This document shows, in pieces, positions 12,960 through 52,554 of a DNA stretch of 64,000 bases. Below the pieces are notes generated by a model that was given only the letters and a program-made list of their open reading frames with translations, did not search any database and was not told the origin of the DNA. Made by a program: the position numbers and the translations under genes. Every line of letters starts with the position of its first letter. The stretch's first letter is position 1. This DNA is from Psychroserpens algicola (GTDB taxonomy: Bacteria; Bacteroidota; Bacteroidia; Flavobacteriales; Flavobacteriaceae): positions 62,001 to 126,000 of the forward strand of contig NZ_JACNMJ010000009.1 of assembly GCF_014526325.1 (NCBI RefSeq), written 5' to 3'.

Positions 12960-14216
12960 CTATGCTATTTCAAAAGCAGCTTTTACTTTATCTACATAAT
13001 CTAATTTCTCCCAGGTAAATAACTCAACATCAAGAGTAACTGGATCGCCATTAGGTTGCTCAAAAGTTTTGGTAACGGTTTCACTATCGCGTCCCATATG
13101 TCCGTAAGCCGCAGTTTCGCTATACATAGGCTGACGTAATTTTAAACGTTCTTCAATGGCAGCTGGTCGCATATCAAATAGTTGTGCTATTTTTTCAGCA
13201 ATCTCACCATCGGTAATATTAAACGGACAAGTGCCATAAGTGTCTACAAAAATAGAGGTCGGTTTTACCACACCAATAGCATAACTTACCTGTACTAAAA
13301 TTTCATCACAAACACCTGCAGCAACCATATTTTTTGCAATATGACGCGTCGCATAGGCAGCACTTCTGTCTACTTTACTTGGATCTTTACCTGAAAACGC
13401 ACCACCACCATGTGCACCTTTTCCTCCGTAAGTATCGACTATAATTTTTCGTCCTGTTAAGCCAGTGTCACCATGAGGTCCGCCAATCACAAATTTACCA
13501 GTCGGATTGATATGATAAGTGATATCATCATTAAATAAAACTTGAATGTGCTCTGGTAATTTAGCTACAACTCTTGGAATTAAAATCTCAACAATATCTT
13601 TTCTAATCTTAGCCAGCATAGTGTCATCATCTCCAAACTCGTCATGCTGCGTCGACACCACAATAGCATCAATACGTTGCGGCACATTATCGTCACTGTA
13701 TTCAATGGTTACCTGACTTTTAGAATCGGGACGTAAATAAGTAATGTCTTTATTTTCACGTCTTAAGTCGGCAAGCTCTCTTAAAATACGGTGCGATAAA
13801 TCTAAAGCCAAAGGCATGTAGTTATCGGTTTCACGAGTGGCATAACCAAACATCATTCCTTGGTCACCAGCACCTTGTTCTTCTTTACTGGCTCTGTCAA
13901 CGCCACGATTGATGTCTTCAGATTGCTCATGAATGGCCGAAAATACACCACAAGAGTTGCCATCAAACATATAAGCACTTTTGGTGTAACCAATTTTATT
14001 AATGGTGTCTCTGGCGATTTTTTGAACATCTAAATAGGTGTTCGATTTTACTTCACCAGCCAATACAACTTGACCTGTTGTGACCAAAGTTTCACAAGCC
14101 ACTTTTGACTCGCGGTCAAAGGCTAAAAAATTATCTATTAATGCGTCACTAATTTGATCTGCTACTTTATCTGGATGTCCTTCAGAAACACTTTCCGAAG
14201 TAAATAAATATGCCAT
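12960..14216 (-). CDS. metK: S-adenosylmethionine synthetase
   Basis: This 418-residue cytoplasmic enzyme makes SAM from methionine and ATP. Family motifs are all present: '[21 protein letters not shown]' (methionine/ATP site), 'GEVKS', '[12 protein letters not shown]', '[20 protein letters not shown]' and '[20 protein letters not shown]' (the P-loop-like phosphate region). Length is normal for Bacteroidota, slightly longer than the 384 residues of E. coli. It is transcribed alone, away from the methionine biosynthetic operon. Its leader carries a SAM-II-like riboswitch core about 75 nt before the start, so SAM is expected to repress its own synthase. Confidence 0.97.
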
Positions 14217-14292
14217 AAATCCCTTTAAATTTTTATTAGTTATAGAAAAATTAATTGAGATTGCTCAGTCGCTAGAGAAGTTGAAAACTAAC

Positions 14293-14345
14293 TGCTTTAG
14301 CATTTTTTTATGAGGTTGCAATCAGAACAAATTTTTCCTCTTTAA
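14293..14345 (-). promoter_or_regulatory. SAM-II riboswitch core in the metK leader
   Basis: On the minus strand the leader reads AAAGAGG, an A/T-rich loop, GATTGCAA, CCTC, ATAAAAAA and ATGCTAAAGC. This follows the SAM-II (alpha-proteobacterial/Bacteroidota pseudoknot) pattern: a short P1 (GAGG/CCTC), the conserved ATTGCA before its 3' strand, and TAAA...GCTAAA after it. The 3' end is 77 nt from the metK start. Gene context (SAM synthetase) agrees. No terminator hairpin was seen between it and metK, so control may be translational. Confidence 0.75.
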
Positions 14346-14352
14346 TCGGCAA

Positions 14353-14360
14353 CAAAAGTA
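14353..14360 (-). promoter_or_regulatory. metK promoter -7 box TACTTTTG
   Basis: A perfect TAnnTTTG on the minus strand lies just upstream of the SAM-II core, so transcription would begin a few bases before the riboswitch. About 19 bp further upstream is a TTTT in place of the ideal TTTG. I see nothing else in 14361-14540, an A/T-rich spacer. Confidence 0.65.
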
Positions 14361-14546
14361 CAGATATTATTGAAACTAGAAAAGAATGTTTTACAAATAA
14401 GACTTTTGTCACTTACACCTGCTAAAAATGAGATTAATAACAAGTATCTAATTTTTAGAATAAAAAAGCCTTCAAAATCATAATTATAGAAAATATTTCT
14501 GTTTTATTGCGATTATGTTAATTATTTAGAAAAATTTTCGGTTTGA

Positions 14547-14579
14547 TTTGGATTATTGAAATTTATGTTGCAATATTTG
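14547..14579 (+). promoter_or_regulatory. Promoter of the metY operon
   Basis: TTTG at 14547-14550 and AATATTTG at 14572-14579 (one mismatch to TAnnTTTG), 21 bp apart, end about 30 bp before the first paired base of the SAM-I riboswitch. Confidence 0.55.
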
Positions 14580-14609
14580 TGCTCACAAAGTTCAATAACT
14601 TACTGAAAT

Positions 14610-14730
14610 GTTATCAAGAAAGGTGGAGAGATTAGACTCGCTGAAACCTTAGCAACCCTTAAATTTATTAAGAAGGTGCTAAATTCTACTTGAAAGCACG
14701 ATTCATTTATCGTGTAATCGGATAGATAAC
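14610..14730 (+). promoter_or_regulatory. SAM-I (S box) riboswitch before metY
   Basis: P1 forms between GTTATC (14610-14615) and GATAAC (14725-14730). The aptamer has the S-box signature: AAGAAAGGTGGAGAGATTAGACT, CTGAAACCTTAGCAACCCTT and AAGGTGCTAAATTCTAC, followed by a P4 hairpin (ACGATTCATTTATCGT region). It leads the metY-metX-hom-metZ operon. A terminator hairpin lies directly after P1, so repression by SAM is probably at transcription. Confidence 0.93.
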
Positions 14731-14735
14731 TCAAA

Positions 14736-14853: not shown

Positions 14854-16146
14854 ATGAGTACACAAAAATTCGCAACAAAAGCGTTGCACGCAGGACACGA
14901 TGTTAATCAAACAGGAGGAACACGAGCGGTTCCAATTTATCAATCTACGGCTTACGTTTTTGATGATTCAGATGATGCCGCTGGGCGTTTTAATTTATCG
15001 GTTCCAGGATTTATTTATACGCGTTTAAATAATCCGACCAATGATATTCTAGAACAGCGTATTGCCGCTCTCGAAGGTGGAATTGCAGCCGTTGCTACAG
15101 CTTCAGGAACTGCAGCAATTTCAACCACATTATTAACGCTTTTAAAAGCTGGTGATCATATTGTAGCTTCTAATAGTTTGTATGGTGGAACCTATAATTT
15201 ATTAAGTGTAACCTTACCAAGACATGGGATTACAACAACTTTTGTAGACCCATCTAACCCTGAAAATTTCGAAAAAGCGACTCAGGAAAATACCAGAGCT
15301 TTTTTCGTAGAATCCCTTGGTAATCCAAAATTAGATGTATTAGATATCGAAGCTATTGCTAGTCAGGCCAAAGCTCATAAAGTGCCTTTTATTGTTGATA
15401 ATACTGTAGCAACACCATATTTGCTGAATCCAATTGATTATGGCGCTAACATTGTTATTCATTCGTTAACCAAATATATCAATGGTAACGGAACGTCTCT
15501 TGGCGGAATCATCGTTGACGCAGGTACGTTTGACTGGACCAACGGTAAATTTCCAGAGTTTACTGAGCCTTCAGCTGGCTATCATGGTTTAGTTTACAGT
15601 GAAGTTATTGGAGATGCCGCGTTTATTGCAAAAATTAGAATTGAAGGTCTTCGTGATTATGGCGGAGCTTTGAGTCCGTTTAATGCCTTTCAAATTATTC
15701 AAGGGCTTGAAACCTTAGAATTACGCATCAAAAAGCATAGTGAAAATGCCCTCGAATTAGCCCAATGGTTGCAAGAACAACCTGAAGTCAATTGGGTCAA
15801 TTATCCTGGATTAGAAACCAGTAAATACAAAGCTTTGGCTGAAAAATATTTACCAAACGGACAAAGTGGTATCGTGACCTTTGGTGTTGAAGGCGGCTAC
15901 GAATCGGCGAAAACTATTGCCGATACGACTAAGCTATTTTCACTTTTAGCTAATATTGGCGATACCAAATCATTAATTATTCATCCGGCAAGTACAACGC
16001 ATCAGCAGTTGAGTGATGAAGCTCAGGAAACTACAGGTGTGACTAAAGACTTAATTCGCTTGTCGGTTGGTATTGAAAATATCGAAGACTTAAAAGCCGA
16101 TTTAAAAGAAGCTTTCGAAGTCGTTAAAAAAACAGTATTAGCTTAA
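14854..16146 (+). CDS. metY: O-acetylhomoserine aminocarboxypropyltransferase (O-acetylhomoserine sulfhydrylase)
   Basis: A 430-residue PLP enzyme of the Cys/Met metabolism family that joins O-acetylhomoserine and sulfide to give homocysteine. The start 'FATKALHAGHD' and 'YTRLNNPTNDILEQRIAALEGG' are typical of MetY. The PLP lysine is K207 in 'IHSLTKYINGNG'. The MetY-specific insert after this lysine ('GGIIVDAGTFDW...FPEFTEPSAGYHG') separates it from cystathionine-type paralogues. It is the first gene of the SAM-I controlled operon, with metX, hom and a metZ-like gene behind it. It would use sulfide from the sulfite reductase encoded 6 kb downstream. Confidence 0.95.
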   Translation: MSTQKFATKALHAGHDVNQTGGTRAVPIYQSTAYVFDDSDDAAGRFNLSVPGFIYTRLNNPTNDILEQRIAALEGGIAAVATASGTAAISTTLLTLLKAGDHIVASNSLYGGTYNLLSVTLPRHGITTTFVDPSNPENFEKATQENTRAFFVESLGNPKLDVLDIEAIASQAKAHKVPFIVDNTVATPYLLNPIDYGANIVIHSLTKYINGNGTSLGGIIVDAGTFDWTNGKFPEFTEPSAGYHGLVYSEVIGDAAFIAKIRIEGLRDYGGALSPFNAFQIIQGLETLELRIKKHSENALELAQWLQEQPEVNWVNYPGLETSKYKALAEKYLPNGQSGIVTFGVEGGYESAKTIADTTKLFSLLANIGDTKSLIIHPASTTHQQLSDEAQETTGVTKDLIRLSVGIENIEDLKADLKEAFEVVKKTVLA

Positions 16147-25715: not shown

Positions 25716-25793
25716 ATTTATTTAGACTTTTAAATTTTTATATTTAAAATTTAATGCGTTAATTTACACCTCAGTTCATATAATTATTGATTT

Positions 25794-25909
25794 GTTATCA
25801 TGAAAGGCAGAGGGAATAGACCCAGTGAAGCCTTAGCAACCCTTTATTTTAAAGAAGGTGCTAAATTCTACCTAAATCTGATTGGATTCAGAAATTTAGG
25901 ACAGATAAA
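25794..25909 (+). promoter_or_regulatory. SAM-I (S box) riboswitch before metH
   Basis: P1 pairs TTATC (25795-25799) with GATAA (25904-25908). Signature elements are ATGAAAGGCAGAGGGAATAGACC, GTGAAGCCTTAGCAACCC and AAGAAGGTGCTAAATTCTACC, with a P4 hairpin CTAAAT...ATTTAG. It matches the metY riboswitch in the core GCAACCC and GGTGCTAAATTCTAC. It lies 54 nt before the metH N-terminal gene. Confidence 0.93.
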
Positions 25910-25941
25910 CAACACAGAAGTAATTCTCTTACTTTCCTGAT

Positions 25942-33598: not shown

Positions 33599-33615
33599 AT
33601 ATCAATTTATTTATT

Positions 33616-33623
33616 CAAAAATA
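33616..33623 (-). promoter_or_regulatory. gldA promoter -7 box TATTTTTG
   Basis: Perfect TAnnTTTG on the minus strand, 17 bp upstream of the gldA ATG. The -33 element is not obvious. Confidence 0.55.
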
Positions 33624-33703
33624 GCAATTATTACCTATGACCTTATTTAAATTATGAATTCTTTAAAACTGAAACGAAAAATTCAAAAATATCTTATAAC
33701 AAT

Positions 33704-33733
33704 TTTGATTTCTTAAAATAATAATTACATTAG
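33704..33733 (+). promoter_or_regulatory. Promoter of the aromatic amino acid operon
   Basis: TTTG (33704-33707), an 18 bp spacer, then TACATTAG (33726-33733, one mismatch to TAnnTTTG). Transcription would start about 10 nt before the leader peptide ATG at 33750. Confidence 0.55.
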
Positions 33734-33749
33734 CACCTCATTTACAACT

Positions 33750-33827
33750 ATGAATACATTAAATCATACATATTACAACTGGTTTTATTTCTTTTTTAGC
33801 GAAAAGAAAGAGACGTTATATGTATAA
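33750..33827 (+). CDS. Aromatic-rich attenuator leader peptide
   Basis: ATG 33750 to TAA 33825-33827 encodes 25 residues containing the run YYNWFYFFF (residues 8-16, codons 33771-33797). Eight of these nine residues are aromatic, directly upstream of an aromatic biosynthesis operon. Stalling of the ribosome on these codons when charged Tyr, Trp or Phe tRNA is scarce would control the terminator downstream. The Phe codons lie in the 5' arm of a hairpin (33788-33795/33802-33809), as in classical 1:2 pause structures. Confidence 0.8.
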   Translation: MNTLNHTYYNWFYFFFSEKKETLYV

Positions 33828-33880
33828 TTTATTCAAAATAAATTTAATATGAGTCTCGATGTAAATCGGGACTTTTTTTT
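33788..33880 (+). terminator. Attenuator: pause hairpin, antiterminator and terminator
   Basis: Three mutually exclusive pairings are visible. Hairpin 1:2 is TTTCTTTT (33788-33795)/AAAAGAAA (33802-33809). Antiterminator 2:3 is GAGAC (33810-33814)/GTCTC (33853-33857), extended by A/T pairs. Terminator 3:4 is AGTCTCGAT (33852-33860)/ATCGGGACT (33865-33873) with one G-U pair and loop GTAA, then eight T. The leader stop codon at 33825 places a finishing ribosome over segment 2, favouring termination. Confidence 0.8.
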
Positions 33881-33967
33881 GTAAAACTTTATTTTGAAAT
33901 GTCTATAGTAAGTATAAAATAATTGTTTAGAAAATCCCGAATGCCATTCGGAATATAAATTAAAAGT

Positions 33968-34795
33968 TTGATAAAATCGGTAGCCATACAAGGAGTTAAA
34001 GGGTCGTTTCATCACATTGTGTCACAGCAATTTTTTGAAGATACGGTAGATGTTAACGAATGCCTCACATTTGACGGCGTAGTCGATAGTATTTTAAATG
34101 CACAAAGTGATGCAGCTATTATGGCTATAGAGAATTCTATTGCAGGATCTATTATTCCGAATTACGCCTTAATCGATTCTCATAATTTGCATATTGTTGG
34201 TGAGCATTATTTAGCTATTCAACATCATTTAATGGCATTGCCCAATCAATCAATTGGTGATATTAAAGAAGTGTATTCACATCCTATGGCTCTATTACAA
34301 TGTAAAGCGTTCTTTAAACAATATCCGCATATTAAACTTATTGAAGATAAAGATACAGCCGAGGTCGCTCAGCGCATTCAAAAACATCAGCTAAAGCATG
34401 TTGCGGCTATAGCCTCTCGATTAGCAGCAAATCTATTTGAACTCCATATCATTTCTGAAAGTATTCAAACCATAAAGCATAACGAAACTAGATTTGTTAT
34501 AGTGAAAACGAAGAATTCTGAAATTTCCGAAGCACAAATCAATAAGGCTTCAGTAAAATTTGAATTAGACCATAAAAGAGGAAGTTTAGCGACTATTTTA
34601 AACGTTTTAAGTGATTGTAAGTTAAATTTGACTAAGATTCAATCACTCCCAAAAATTGAAACCCCTTGGAAATATGCTTTTTTTGTGGATTTAACTTTTG
34701 AAACCTACAAAGATTTCGAAAAGGCTAAATCAATTATGGCAATTATGGCTCAAGATTTTAAAATACTGGGAGAATATAAAAACGCAAGACTATGA
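33968..34795 (+). CDS. pheA: Prephenate dehydratase
   Basis: A 275-residue monofunctional enzyme turning prephenate into phenylpyruvate. The start 'VAIQGVKGSFHHIVSQQFF' matches the usual 'iaiqGvkGSFH' opening of Bacteroidota forms, which fixes the TTG start at 33968; there is no better ATG. The catalytic domain runs to about residue 180 ('AIMAIENSIAGSIIPNYALI', 'YSHPMALLQC', 'HNETRFVIV'), then an ACT domain (about 195-275, 'FELDHKRGSLATILNVLSDCKLNLTKIQSLP') that should bind phenylalanine for feedback. It is the first structural gene behind the attenuator and overlaps the aminotransferase gene by 4 bp. Confidence 0.94.
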   Translation: MIKSVAIQGVKGSFHHIVSQQFFEDTVDVNECLTFDGVVDSILNAQSDAAIMAIENSIAGSIIPNYALIDSHNLHIVGEHYLAIQHHLMALPNQSIGDIKEVYSHPMALLQCKAFFKQYPHIKLIEDKDTAEVAQRIQKHQLKHVAAIASRLAANLFELHIISESIQTIKHNETRFVIVKTKNSEISEAQINKASVKFELDHKRGSLATILNVLSDCKLNLTKIQSLPKIETPWKYAFFVDLTFETYKDFEKAKSIMAIMAQDFKILGEYKNARL

Positions 34796-35937
34796 TTCAG
34801 ATTGCTAACCGATTACAAAACGTTGAAGAATATTACTTCTCAAAAAAATTGAGAGAAGTAGGCTTGTTAAAGGCACAAGGCAAACCTATTATTAATTTAG
34901 GTATTGGGAGCCCAGATTTGAATCCGCCAGAACGTGTTCTCAATGCATTGGTAGAAACCTTCAATGAAGAGGGCGCTCATAAATATCAAAGCTATCAAGG
35001 TATTTTAGAGTTGAGAGAAGCGATTGCAGATTTTTACAGACGACATTTTAATGTGCCTTTAAGTCCGTTAACTGAAGTGTTACCGCTTATGGGAAGCAAG
35101 GAAGGGATTTTGCATATTTCAATGGCATTTTTAAACGAAGGCGATGAGGTTTTGATTCCAAATCCTGGATATCCTACCTATCAATCGGTTACAAAACTCG
35201 TAGGAGCTACACCTGTATTTTACGATTTAACGGAAGATAACAATTGGTTTCCAAATTTGATTGAACTCGAAAAAAGAGGTCTTGAAAAGGTAAAAATAAT
35301 GTGGGTAAATTATCCGCATATGCCAACTGGAGCACAGGCAACCAATAAATTATTTGAAGATTTAATCACATTCGCAAAACGCAACAATATATTAATCATT
35401 AATGATAACCCATACAGTTTTATTTTAAATAAATACCCTCGAAGTATTTTAAAATATAATGGTGCTGCAGACGTGTGTTTAGAATTAAATTCCTTGAGTA
35501 AAACTTTCAATATGGCAGGTTGGCGAGTTGGGATGTTATTGGGTAAAGAAGCGTATGTTAAGGCTGTTTTGCGTGTAAAAAGTAATATGGACTCTGGTAT
35601 GTTTTTAGGTATTCAAAAAGGTGCTATTGAAGCTTTAAATTGTTCAGATATGTGGTTTCTTAGCTTAAATAGCGTATACGAACAACGTCGTGAGATTGTA
35701 TGGCAAATTGCCGAAGCACTTAACTGTACATATGATAAAATGGCTACAGGATTGTTTGTTTGGGCAAAATTACCCGACTACCTGAACGCTGAAGAATACA
35801 TAGATTTAATATTAAAAGAAAAATCGATTTTTATTACTCCAGGAACCATTTTTGGATCTAATGGAAATCGATACATAAGAATATCACTTTGTGCACCACA
35901 AGATGATTTGGAAGAAGCATTAGCTAGATTGAAATAA
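34792..35937 (+). CDS. Class I/II PLP aminotransferase of the aromatic operon
   Basis: A 381-residue PLP aminotransferase. Conserved features are 'INLGIGSPDLNPPERVLNALVE' near the start, 'PNPGYPTYQSV', 'NYPHMPTGAQA' (usual NPxNPTG), 'INDNPYSFIL' and PLP lysine K237 in 'LNSLSKTFNMAGWRVGML'. Its place between pheA and tyrA suggests that it converts phenylpyruvate and hydroxyphenylpyruvate, or prephenate itself, to the amino acid; which one cannot be told from sequence. Its start overlaps the pheA stop (ATGA), and tyrA follows after 3 bp. Confidence 0.9.
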   Translation: MIQIANRLQNVEEYYFSKKLREVGLLKAQGKPIINLGIGSPDLNPPERVLNALVETFNEEGAHKYQSYQGILELREAIADFYRRHFNVPLSPLTEVLPLMGSKEGILHISMAFLNEGDEVLIPNPGYPTYQSVTKLVGATPVFYDLTEDNNWFPNLIELEKRGLEKVKIMWVNYPHMPTGAQATNKLFEDLITFAKRNNILIINDNPYSFILNKYPRSILKYNGAADVCLELNSLSKTFNMAGWRVGMLLGKEAYVKAVLRVKSNMDSGMFLGIQKGAIEALNCSDMWFLSLNSVYEQRREIVWQIAEALNCTYDKMATGLFVWAKLPDYLNAEEYIDLILKEKSIFITPGTIFGSNGNRYIRISLCAPQDDLEEALARLK

Positions 35938-35940
35938 AAC

Positions 35941-36792
35941 ATGAATAATATATATATCATAGGCGTAGGATTAATTGGCGGAAGTTTGGCGTTAGACATG
36001 AAGTCTAATAATGCACAAGCAACACTTTACGGCATTGATTCTAACACGACACATTTAGATGAAGCTATTGAACTCAAAATTATTGATGAGAAAGCGACTT
36101 ATGATGATTTGAAAGATGCCGATTTAGTGGTGCTTGCAATCCCAGTAGATAAAGCTATAGCAGAACTTCCTAAGGTGTTAGATGCGATTTCAGATACGAC
36201 CTTAGTTATAGATGTTGGTTCAACAAAACTGCCTATCTGTAACGCTGTAGAGCATCATGAAAAACGTCGCAATTTTTTAGCAACGCATCCTATCGCTGGT
36301 ACCGAATTTTCAGGACCTTCAGCAGCTATTCGTGATTTATTTCAAAAGAAAACAAACATCATTTGTGAGGTGGAAAAAACAACGTTCAAATTACAAGAGA
36401 AAGCTTTACAGTTGTTTTCAGACTTAGGAATGCGCATTCGTTATATGAATCCTGAAGCTCATGATAAACATATTGCCTATGTGTCGCACTTATCACATAT
36501 CAGTTCATTTATGCTAGGTAAAACAGTTATAGAAAAAGAAAAAAATGAACGGGATATTTTTGATATGGCTGGAAGTGGTTTTGAAAGTACTGTGCGGTTG
36601 GCAAAAAGTTCACCAGCAATGTGGACACCTATTTTTAAACAAAATAAAACCAATGTTGTAGAGACGCTCGATGAATACATCAATAATTTAAAACAGTTTA
36701 AAGCATTGATGGAGGCTGATGATTTTGAAGAAATATACAATGAGATGGAAAATACTAATCATATAAAGGATATACTAAAAGGAATTGTTTAA
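35941..36792 (+). CDS. tyrA: Prephenate dehydrogenase
   Basis: A 283-residue NAD(P)-dependent enzyme turning prephenate into hydroxyphenylpyruvate. The Rossmann loop is 'IYIIGVGLIGGSLALDMK' at residues 4-21. Also typical are 'VVLAIPVDKAI', 'VIDVGSTK', 'FLATHPIAGTEFSGPSAAI' with the catalytic His, and 'HDKHIAYVSHLSHISSF'. No ACT domain is present, so tyrosine control may rest on the attenuator and on the DAHP synthase. It sits between the aminotransferase gene (3 bp) and the DAHP synthase gene (9 bp). Confidence 0.94.
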   Translation: MNNIYIIGVGLIGGSLALDMKSNNAQATLYGIDSNTTHLDEAIELKIIDEKATYDDLKDADLVVLAIPVDKAIAELPKVLDAISDTTLVIDVGSTKLPICNAVEHHEKRRNFLATHPIAGTEFSGPSAAIRDLFQKKTNIICEVEKTTFKLQEKALQLFSDLGMRIRYMNPEAHDKHIAYVSHLSHISSFMLGKTVIEKEKNERDIFDMAGSGFESTVRLAKSSPAMWTPIFKQNKTNVVETLDEYINNLKQFKALMEADDFEEIYNEMENTNHIKDILKGIV

Positions 36793-36801
36793 TAGAATAT
36801 T

Positions 36802-37884
36802 ATGGAGAATAAGAAAGAAATGAGAACATGGTTAGATGATTTAAAATTAAATCATCCACTGGTCATTGCAGGACCATGCAGTGCAGAAACTGAAGAACAG
36901 GTGTTAAAAATTGCTCACGAGCTAAAAGATACCGATGTTAATTATTATCGAGCGGGTATCTGGAAGCCGAGAACACGACCTGGAAATTTTGAGGGTGTAG
37001 GTGCATTAGGTCTCAAATGGTTACAGAAAGTAAAAGCTGAAACAGGCTTAAAAACGGCAACTGAGGTTGCCAACAGAAACCATGTAGAATTGGCATTGGA
37101 ACATGATATCGATTTATTATGGATTGGAGCGCGCTCAACAGTTAGCCCTTTTATCATGCAGGAACTAGCTGATGCACTGAAGGGAACCGATAAAACGGTA
37201 TTGGTAAAAAATCCTGTCAATCCAGATTTAGCATTATGGCTTGGTGGTATCGAACGATTATATACAGCAGGAATCAAGAATTTGGGAGCCATACATAGAG
37301 GGTTTTCAACCTATGAAAAATCGAAGTATAGAAATATTCCTGAATGGCAATTAGCTATTGAATTTCAGAATAGATTTCCTGATTTACCGCTTATTAATGA
37401 TCCTTCTCATATCACAGGAAAAAGAGATATGATTTTTGACGTGTCTCAAACCGCATTAGATTTAAATTTTGACGGATTGATGATTGAAACTCATACAAAT
37501 CCTGATAAAGCATGGAGTGATGCTGCTCAACAAGTCACACCAGATACTCTAGTGCAAATCATGAAAGATTTGAGAATTAGAAAAGAAACAGATCCTGAAG
37601 CCGAGTACAATACAGAGCTTAATAATTTAAGAGCTCAAATTGATGTGGTTGACAATCAAATTATCGAATTACTAGGCAAACGAATGAAAGTTGCTGATGG
37701 GATTGGTGCTTTGAAAAAACAAAAAAATGTTGCTGTATTACAAAGTAAACGCTGGAACGAAATTTTAGGAAAAATGGTGCTTGAAGGCGAGGAAAAAGGA
37801 TTAAGTGAAGAGTTTATCTTACGTATGTTTAAAGCGATTCATCAGGAATCGATTAATCATCAGGAAAAGATTATTAACGGATAA
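36802..37884 (+). CDS. Bifunctional DAHP synthase / chorismate mutase
   Basis: 360 residues. The N-terminal part (to about 260) is a KDPG-type DAHP synthase ('HPLVIAGPCSAETEEQVLKIA', 'YYRAGIWKPRTRPGNFEG', 'IGARSTVSPFIMQELA', 'LPLINDPSHITGKRD', 'MIETHTNPDKAWSDA'). After a short linker, residues about 270-360 form an AroQ chorismate mutase ('LNNLRAQIDVVDNQIIELLGKRMKVADGIGALKK', 'ILGKMVLEGEEKGL'). The enzyme therefore makes both the first intermediate of the shikimate pathway and prephenate, the substrate of pheA and tyrA. In this order the mutase domain often gives feedback control. It ends the operon before a strong terminator. Confidence 0.94.
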   Translation: MENKKEMRTWLDDLKLNHPLVIAGPCSAETEEQVLKIAHELKDTDVNYYRAGIWKPRTRPGNFEGVGALGLKWLQKVKAETGLKTATEVANRNHVELALEHDIDLLWIGARSTVSPFIMQELADALKGTDKTVLVKNPVNPDLALWLGGIERLYTAGIKNLGAIHRGFSTYEKSKYRNIPEWQLAIEFQNRFPDLPLINDPSHITGKRDMIFDVSQTALDLNFDGLMIETHTNPDKAWSDAAQQVTPDTLVQIMKDLRIRKETDPEAEYNTELNNLRAQIDVVDNQIIELLGKRMKVADGIGALKKQKNVAVLQSKRWNEILGKMVLEGEEKGLSEEFILRMFKAIHQESINHQEKIING

Positions 37885-52466: not shown

Positions 52467-52554
52467 GGGCATTACCCTAAAGGGTCGTGCTTTCCACTAT
52501 ATCTTTTGCACATTAAAAATGCACAAAAGGATGCCGTTGCAATCACTAATGCAA
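52467..52554 (+). repeat. Structured dispersed repeat, copy 3 (subtype B)
   Basis: From GGGCATTACCC to AATCACTAATGCAA. Hairpin 1 is ACCC/GGGT with loop TAAA (52474-52485). Then comes GTGCTTTCC, and hairpin 2 is CTTTTG...CAAAAG enclosing a 2x2 internal loop and CATT/AATG, then GGATGCCG. The ends GCATT and AATGC pair, whereas copies 1 and 2 have GCGTT and AACGC: a compensatory change. It lies between the queA terminator and the rlmN promoter. Confidence 0.7.

Follow-up and report, generated by a model that had tools for sequence, protein, structure and literature searches.

Does the DNA ahead of pheA in Psychroserpens algicola specify a ribosome-mediated transcription attenuator and, if so, which amino acids does it sense? 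We analyzed this locus within the window, by which we mean the whole stretch of 64,000 nucleotides under study, and compared it with the corresponding loci of relatives. A sequence-only reading had proposed a complete attenuator whose single leader senses Phe, Tyr, and Trp together.

The operon and its leader

The pheA gene (prephenate dehydratase; 33968-34795; Pfam PDT, 1.9e-54) is the first gene of the presumed operon. It is followed by genes assigned by Pfam to a class I/II aminotransferase (34792-35937), tyrA, a prephenate dehydrogenase (35941-36792), and a DAHP synthase/chorismate mutase (DAHPS/CM; 36802-37884). This order is the one given by the sequence-only reading, and all of these genes lie on the forward strand, as do the leader features described below. 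The last gene encodes the sole DAHP synthase found in the genome. A second PF00793 match, on contig 13, was rejected as an additional DAHP synthase because it is KdsA, and the genome search returned no match to a type II DAHP synthase. The same neighborhood recurs in relatives. When up to 3 kb on each side of pheA was examined in 80 named loci, the aminotransferase was found in 80, tyrA in 78, and DAHPS in 76; the nearest named pheA relatives are 93 to 80% identical and are mostly Psychroserpens.

Upstream of this biosynthetic operon lies a short ORF of 25 codons (33750-33827), supported by sequence and by comparison with relatives, that encodes MNTLNHTYYNWFYFFFSEKKETLYV and carries a run of codons for the products of the pathway. 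Aromatic codons make up eight of the nine across 33771-33797 (YYNWFYFFF, the control codons as placed by comparison of leader cores), and the FYFFF portion is the nearest to region 2 of the RNA. Of 1,000 dinucleotide-shuffled versions of the 420 nt that precede pheA, 1 reached at least eight aromatics in 10 residues, 8 reached seven, and 36 reached six.

RNA helices of the proposed switch in the window

Recomputation in the window placed three helices and showed that the ORF, the pause hairpin, the GAGAC/GTCTC pairing, and the terminator had been located essentially correctly. The 1:2 hairpin (33788-33809; pause/protector; -5.1 kcal/mol) includes control codons, pairing the Phe codons with the downstream AAAAGAAA. 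The 2:3 hairpin, the antiterminator (-13.1 kcal/mol), has as its core GAGAC at 33810-33814 paired with GTCTC at 33853-33857. It is longer than previously described, forming one hairpin from 33810 to 33857 with AAUUUAUU-CAA-AAUAAAUU at its top. This hairpin uses the 5' arm of the terminator, so that the two structures are mutually exclusive. The intrinsic terminator (3:4; 33851-33880; -13.0 kcal/mol) stands ahead of the first structural gene, with a stem at 33851-33874 and a run of eight U's to 33880; the terminator scan found one, compared with a shuffled mean of 0.1. Whether folding began at 33798 or at 33810, the minimum-energy structure contained the terminator rather than the antiterminator. 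Since the two hairpins are also of about the same energy, the switch would need co-transcriptional kinetics.

Promoter and initiation

The promoter-like boxes noted earlier hold up in one form and fail in another. A putative Bacteroidota-type promoter is present (33704-33733), consisting of TTTG at 33704-33707 and a -7 box, TACATTAG, at 33726-33733, whereas a sigma-70 promoter was rejected because the sigma-70 scan was no better than shuffles (3 found; shuffled mean, 3.5). A -7 box with TTG 17 to 21 nt ahead of it occurs upstream of 115 of the 152 leaders collected in this study, against 0.6% of mononucleotide shuffles, and in only about 14 to 15 of 27 divergent leader representatives. The consensus TAnnTTTG is given in an excerpted report on F. 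psychrophilum (PMC9723704). The -7 box ends 16 nt 5' of the leader ATG, which predicts a short 5' untranslated region without a Shine-Dalgarno sequence. Indeed, a Shine-Dalgarno-like 4-mer precedes only 3 of the 152 leaders, the other 149 lacking even a 4-mer, and A is preferred at -3 (108/152). This preference for A at -3 without a Shine-Dalgarno sequence agrees with the excerpted F. johnsoniae report (PMC6847099).

Covariation and geometry of the helices

The sequence-only reading had suggested checking the 2:3 and 3:4 pairings for covariation. Both were found to covary, with two antiterminator measures at the level of shuffles. In swap tests on 27 divergent leader representatives (<70% identity), the cognate 2:3 pairing averaged -13.8 kcal/mol, compared with -9.3 kcal/mol (standard deviation, 0.47) for permuted partners, and 0 of 20,000 permutations were as good. 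All 27 double-centered cognate values were negative, although the true partner ranked only 13th to 15th of 27 (0-based) in three representatives. The 1:2 pairing of the same 27 representatives averaged -6.8 kcal/mol when cognate and -5.3 kcal/mol (standard deviation, 0.33) when swapped, again with 0 of 20,000 as good.

Column-level covariation was scored in a MAFFT alignment of 42 leaders hand-chosen from the 152. For the terminator, 96.3% of cells pair, and there are 54 double-changed cells against a shuffled mean of 13.9 (0/500 shuffles reached this). For the antiterminator, 71.9% of cells pair, with 23 double-changed cells against a shuffled mean of 9.4 (0/500). After a slide of one column, the terminator retained at most a third of its covariation score, and the antiterminator retained about half. 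Two of five antiterminator measures did not rise above shuffles in this alignment (double-change pairs, 169/500; further pair types, 147/500). In some clades of the alignment, the antiterminator columns do not line up, which should lower its score. Region 2 and the terminator arm change together between lineages: they read GAGAC/GTCTC in the clade of the window, GGATTGT/ACAATCC in Flavobacterium, GGGACT/AGTCCC in Neptunitalea and Croceitalea, and AGCGGG/CCCGCT in a more distant family.

In every one of the 152 leaders, region 2 starts 4 to 15 nt (median, 10) past the final aromatic codon; because noncognate duplexes start at the same median, this spacing is weak evidence. The two differ only in the spread of the start, which is narrower for cognate than for noncognate duplexes (standard deviations, 2.7 and 6.1).

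Distribution among relatives

A leader was counted as present when at least five aromatics in 10 residues were followed by a hairpin and a U run. The named relatives are the best 80 of 133 pheA loci from the contig scan, and all 80 carry an ORF in which seven or more of 10 residues are aromatic, then a hairpin and a U run, so that no relative lacking the aromatic run, the case sought to refute the attenuator, appeared among them. Shuffles of all loci reached at least seven aromatics in 14 of 1,780. One counted hairpin, that of locus L038, is weak (-5.1 kcal/mol), and six counted leaders have only five aromatics in 10, a level reached by 223 of the 1,780 shuffles. Locus L120 was removed by hand before all counts; it has seven aromatics, but its hairpin is only -6.2 kcal/mol and more than 100 nt away.

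Within the Flavobacteriales, 87 of the 146 genomes searched have a pheA match. Besides the window, 49 of the other 86 loci were fetched, namely, the best-scoring 29 and 20 picked from the rest; the 37 left out are mainly from families f4 and f15. Leader and terminator were present in 36 of these 49 loci, that is, in all 29 close ones (two with five aromatics only) and in 7 of the 20 more distant ones. The 13 distant loci without a leader comprise nine of f4, G134 (also f4), two 0.6-Mb genomes (f15), and one of f11. In other orders of the class, leader and terminator were found in 35 of 49 loci, including four that reach just five aromatics; the 14 without a leader include all seven fetched from family f26. 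Two matches at E values of about 1e-4 (G277 and G300) were left out of the class-level loci. Locus L174, scored as lacking the leader, keeps a promoter-like box and a terminator in the last 100 nt before pheA with no leader ORF seen, as if the leader had been lost.

For other classes, 18 of 95 matches were fetched, and an aromatic ORF with a visible terminator was seen in 3 of the 18 and not in the other 15. Two further loci of the same class as the window, fetched alongside this set, both have the aromatic ORF and terminator. The three carriers from other classes have the most similar PheA proteins (E ≤1.0e-67, the other 15 being at 4e-47 or weaker); thus, the leader seems to accompany this type of pheA. 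The fetched loci were partly hand-picked, so the leader fractions are not unbiased. On the basis of these comparisons, the attenuator appears to be conserved over much of Bacteroidota.

One locus of the same class, L155 (genome G273), has tandem attenuators before pheA, at about 650-920. A second leader ORF, MGYTYYYFFSLMDHRRLWVV, a duplex of seven pairs resembling an antiterminator (-10.7 kcal/mol), and, at -12.1 kcal/mol, a terminator hairpin come after the first attenuator.

Proposed mechanism and alternatives

The ORF recurs across the class, as do the covarying helices and their spacing. This comparative evidence, with leader, terminator, and covarying helices all in place, strongly supports the complete attenuator that had been proposed, and the element is very probably a classical ribosome-mediated transcription attenuator. 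From its anatomy we infer the transcription start, the stalling, the footprint, the termination, and the amino acids sensed. RNA polymerase would start just past 33733, and a ribosome would enter the leader ORF. When tRNA-Phe or tRNA-Tyr (perhaps also tRNA-Trp) is uncharged, the ribosome would stall in codons 8 to 16. If the ribosome has the footprint usual in bacteria, one with the last Phe codon in its A site would just free region 2, and one at the stop codon would cover it. The front edge of the stalled ribosome would lie at about 33809 and leave region 2 (GAGAC...) free to pair with region 3 (33853-33857); no terminator would form, and pheA-aminotransferase-tyrA-DAHPS/CM would be transcribed. 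When the tRNAs are charged, the ribosome would reach the stop codon at 33825 and cover region 2, so that 3:4 forms and transcription terminates near 33880. If the leader is not translated, the 1:2 hairpin would occupy the neighborhood of region 2, and termination would be expected as well.

Three other explanations have to be set against this mechanism. Phe/Tyr runs and hairpins could arise by chance from AT-rich intergenic DNA. The region is AT-rich, and six aromatics were reached by 53 of the 1,780 shuffles of all loci; however, at least seven aromatics, present in all 80 named relatives, were reached by only 14, the swap tests and covariation of the helices argue against chance, and the leader persists in apparently GC-rich loci (e.g., L155, L170, and L172), which leaves chance a negligible probability. 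Alternatively, a specific peptide in the exit tunnel, with or without a small molecule, might stall the ribosome, as in the nascent-peptide arrest of TnaC and SecM. The leader peptide is short and conserved, with a core motif near FYFFF. Yet F, Y, and W replace one another, giving 83 distinct cores in 152 leaders, and the fixed sequence of an arrest peptide was not found. The tail beyond the aromatic run is highly variable and is shortened by early stops in several relatives (L002, L008, L014, L039, L040, L064, and L066), in which the region 2 RNA is kept. This interchange and these shortened tails fit codon or tRNA sensing rather than a fixed arrest sequence, and we consider peptide arrest very improbable.

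Control might also be dual or mainly translational, with the terminator hairpin masking the pheA start region. In 14 of the 152 leaders (L001-L003, L005-L007, L009, L014, L016, L017, L072, L079, L080, and L083), the U run adjoins the residue aligned to the pheA start of the window, so that pheA translation in those loci might be influenced by the hairpin as well. Against this, the gap is 87 nt in the window and 20 to 130 nt in many others, and the U run and hairpin are retained whatever the spacing. Dual or mainly translational control is accordingly an unlikely explanation.

Amino acids probably sensed by the leader

Codons for Phe and Tyr are present in all 152 leader cores, which fits part of the claim that the leader senses all three aromatic amino acids; joint sensing that includes Trp was not borne out. 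Of the 152 cores, 61 contain a Trp codon, as do 34 of the 83 distinct cores and 7 of the 27 divergent representatives; these counts are biased because the core was picked with W included, and they are not independent events because the leaders are related. All 15 loci made up of the window and its nearest relatives, L001-L014, have Trp; among the 35 named Flavobacterium loci, a single one has it. When enrichment was recalculated with a core defined by F and Y only, W accounted for 47 of 1,226 residues inside the core and 14 of 1,397 in the rest of the peptide. This enrichment makes Trp sensing plausible, and Trp codons appear to be favored in places, yet dispensable. The best reading of the sequences is that the attenuator senses the charging of tRNAs for Phe and Tyr, and sensing of Trp by the pheA leader is possible.

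Whether Trp is read at all divides two more specific readings. We judge it somewhat probable that the attenuator reads Phe and Tyr only and that the lone Trp codon is incidental. Trp is missing from 91 of 152 cores, 20 of 27 divergent representatives, and 34 of 35 named Flavobacterium leaders; the window has one Trp codon against seven for Phe and Tyr; and the trp operon of this genome has its own WWW leader. What this reading does not readily accommodate is the enrichment of W in the aromatic span, given that no Phe or Tyr codon can become TGG with fewer than two base changes and that several one-step neighbors are rare there (I, 8; C, 8; L, 6; H, 3; V, 3; D, 2). The contrast with W is not clean, since two other one-step neighbors, N (93) and S (78), occur often in the span. 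In addition, W stands at several positions in different lineages, and the window and L001-L014 all have it. A broader reading, which we hold only tentatively and on the doubtful side, is that one leader reads all three aromatic tRNAs and gates the entry of carbon into the shikimate pathway through the sole DAHP synthase, with a Phe/Tyr(/Trp) attenuator that would be ancestral to the class, would have moved with this type of pheA operon, and would have gained Trp codons repeatedly. Because no DAHP synthase was found outside this operon, the supply of Trp should depend on the operon, and Trp sensing would be sensible.

Relation to known attenuators

The E. coli pheL-pheA attenuator has a Phe-rich leader and competing helices ahead of pheA, with no mix of Tyr or Trp codons and with pheA alone. 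In contrast, the leader of the window mixes Phe and Tyr codons and precedes pheA, tyrA, and DAHPS, and 149 of 152 leaders of its kind lack a Shine-Dalgarno 4-mer. In the enterobacterial ilv and thr leaders, too, a single leader responds to several of the amino acids made by a branched pathway; the likeness is limited to multi-amino-acid sensing, as the amino acids differ and no homology is implied. Lopatovskaya (2010) and Lyubetsky (2007) reportedly treated attenuation across bacteria and may already include cases from Bacteroidetes.

The sequence-only reading implied that such attenuation would be new for the phylum, and this did not survive comparison with Rfam and the literature. The Rfam family Bacteroid-trp (RF01692, "Bacteroidete tryptophan peptide leader RNA"), which the portion of Weinberg 2010 seen lists for Bacteroidetes, matches the trpE leader of this genome (locus L133), where the leader MNINLNHTWWWNSRNNNFVN (WWW) has a terminator composed of a hairpin and a T run. 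Bacteroid-trp shares with the pheA element its phylum and its kind, a peptide leader, but precedes trpE with Trp codons, whereas the pheA element precedes pheA with a mix of Phe and Tyr codons. RF01692 was not found at the pheA leader, either at the gathering score or at E values up to 10. Neither the pheA element of the window nor any of five pheA loci examined matched an Rfam family at the gathering score, and subthreshold matches at 33600-34000 (E up to 10) were rejected as chance-level miRNA or sRNA only.

In the excerpted 2021 report on F. psychrophilum (PMC9723704), strong clues are described for leader-peptide attenuation before amino acid operons, and structured transcribed 5' elements are described before pheA and hisG, the pheA one being conserved in other Flavobacteriaceae genera without an Rfam hit. 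That pheA element is probably the same as the one in the window. The excerpts of PMC9723704 give no leader sequence, antiterminator, covariation, or spread beyond the family for it. Leader-like small ORFs are mentioned in the corresponding part of a B. thetaiotaomicron map. No description of a mixed Phe/Tyr leader was found in the open-access PMC literature searched. With Bacteroid-trp in Rfam and the PMC9723704 report, the mechanism is known and this instance is partly reported; what is new here is the anatomy, the breadth, and the covariation of the pheA attenuator.

Other elements in the window and genome

Several other regulatory elements were observed. A SAM-II riboswitch (14287-14346, reverse strand) precedes a metK-like gene (12960-14216), and a SAM-I riboswitch (14608-14732, forward strand) precedes an O-acetylhomoserine sulfhydrylase-like gene (14854-16146), both genes being named from their translations; the two riboswitch classes thus lie back to back at 14287-14732. 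Another SAM-I riboswitch is at 25792-25911, and a Flavo-1 RNA match (RF01705) is at 52479-52554 on the reverse strand. No leader before ilvD was seen by eye. On contig 9 of the same genome, locus L135 has before hisG a His leader, MYFIQSHHHHFHTGTQAS (HHHHFH), with a hairpin and T run and no Rfam match. On contig 12, locus L208 (146-232) has an ORF that ends in GTIIFTITLRGI and contains Thr and Ile codons. This ORF lies about 70 nt upstream of an aspartokinase/homoserine dehydrogenase (thrA)-like gene (PF00742 match; named from its translation); it was left as a weak candidate for a Thr/Ile leader because it has no clear terminator.

Significance

These results describe, base by base and with tests of covariation, an attenuator that precedes a central operon in much of a class in which most genes have no Shine-Dalgarno sequence. 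Rfam 15 has no model matching the pheA element, and an Rfam-style family and the annotation of leader small ORFs could follow directly. The pheA attenuator would be a natural reporter of how tightly ribosome and polymerase are coupled. The presence of pheA, trp, and his leaders in one genome suggests that ribosome-coupled attenuation is a common form of amino acid control in these bacteria.
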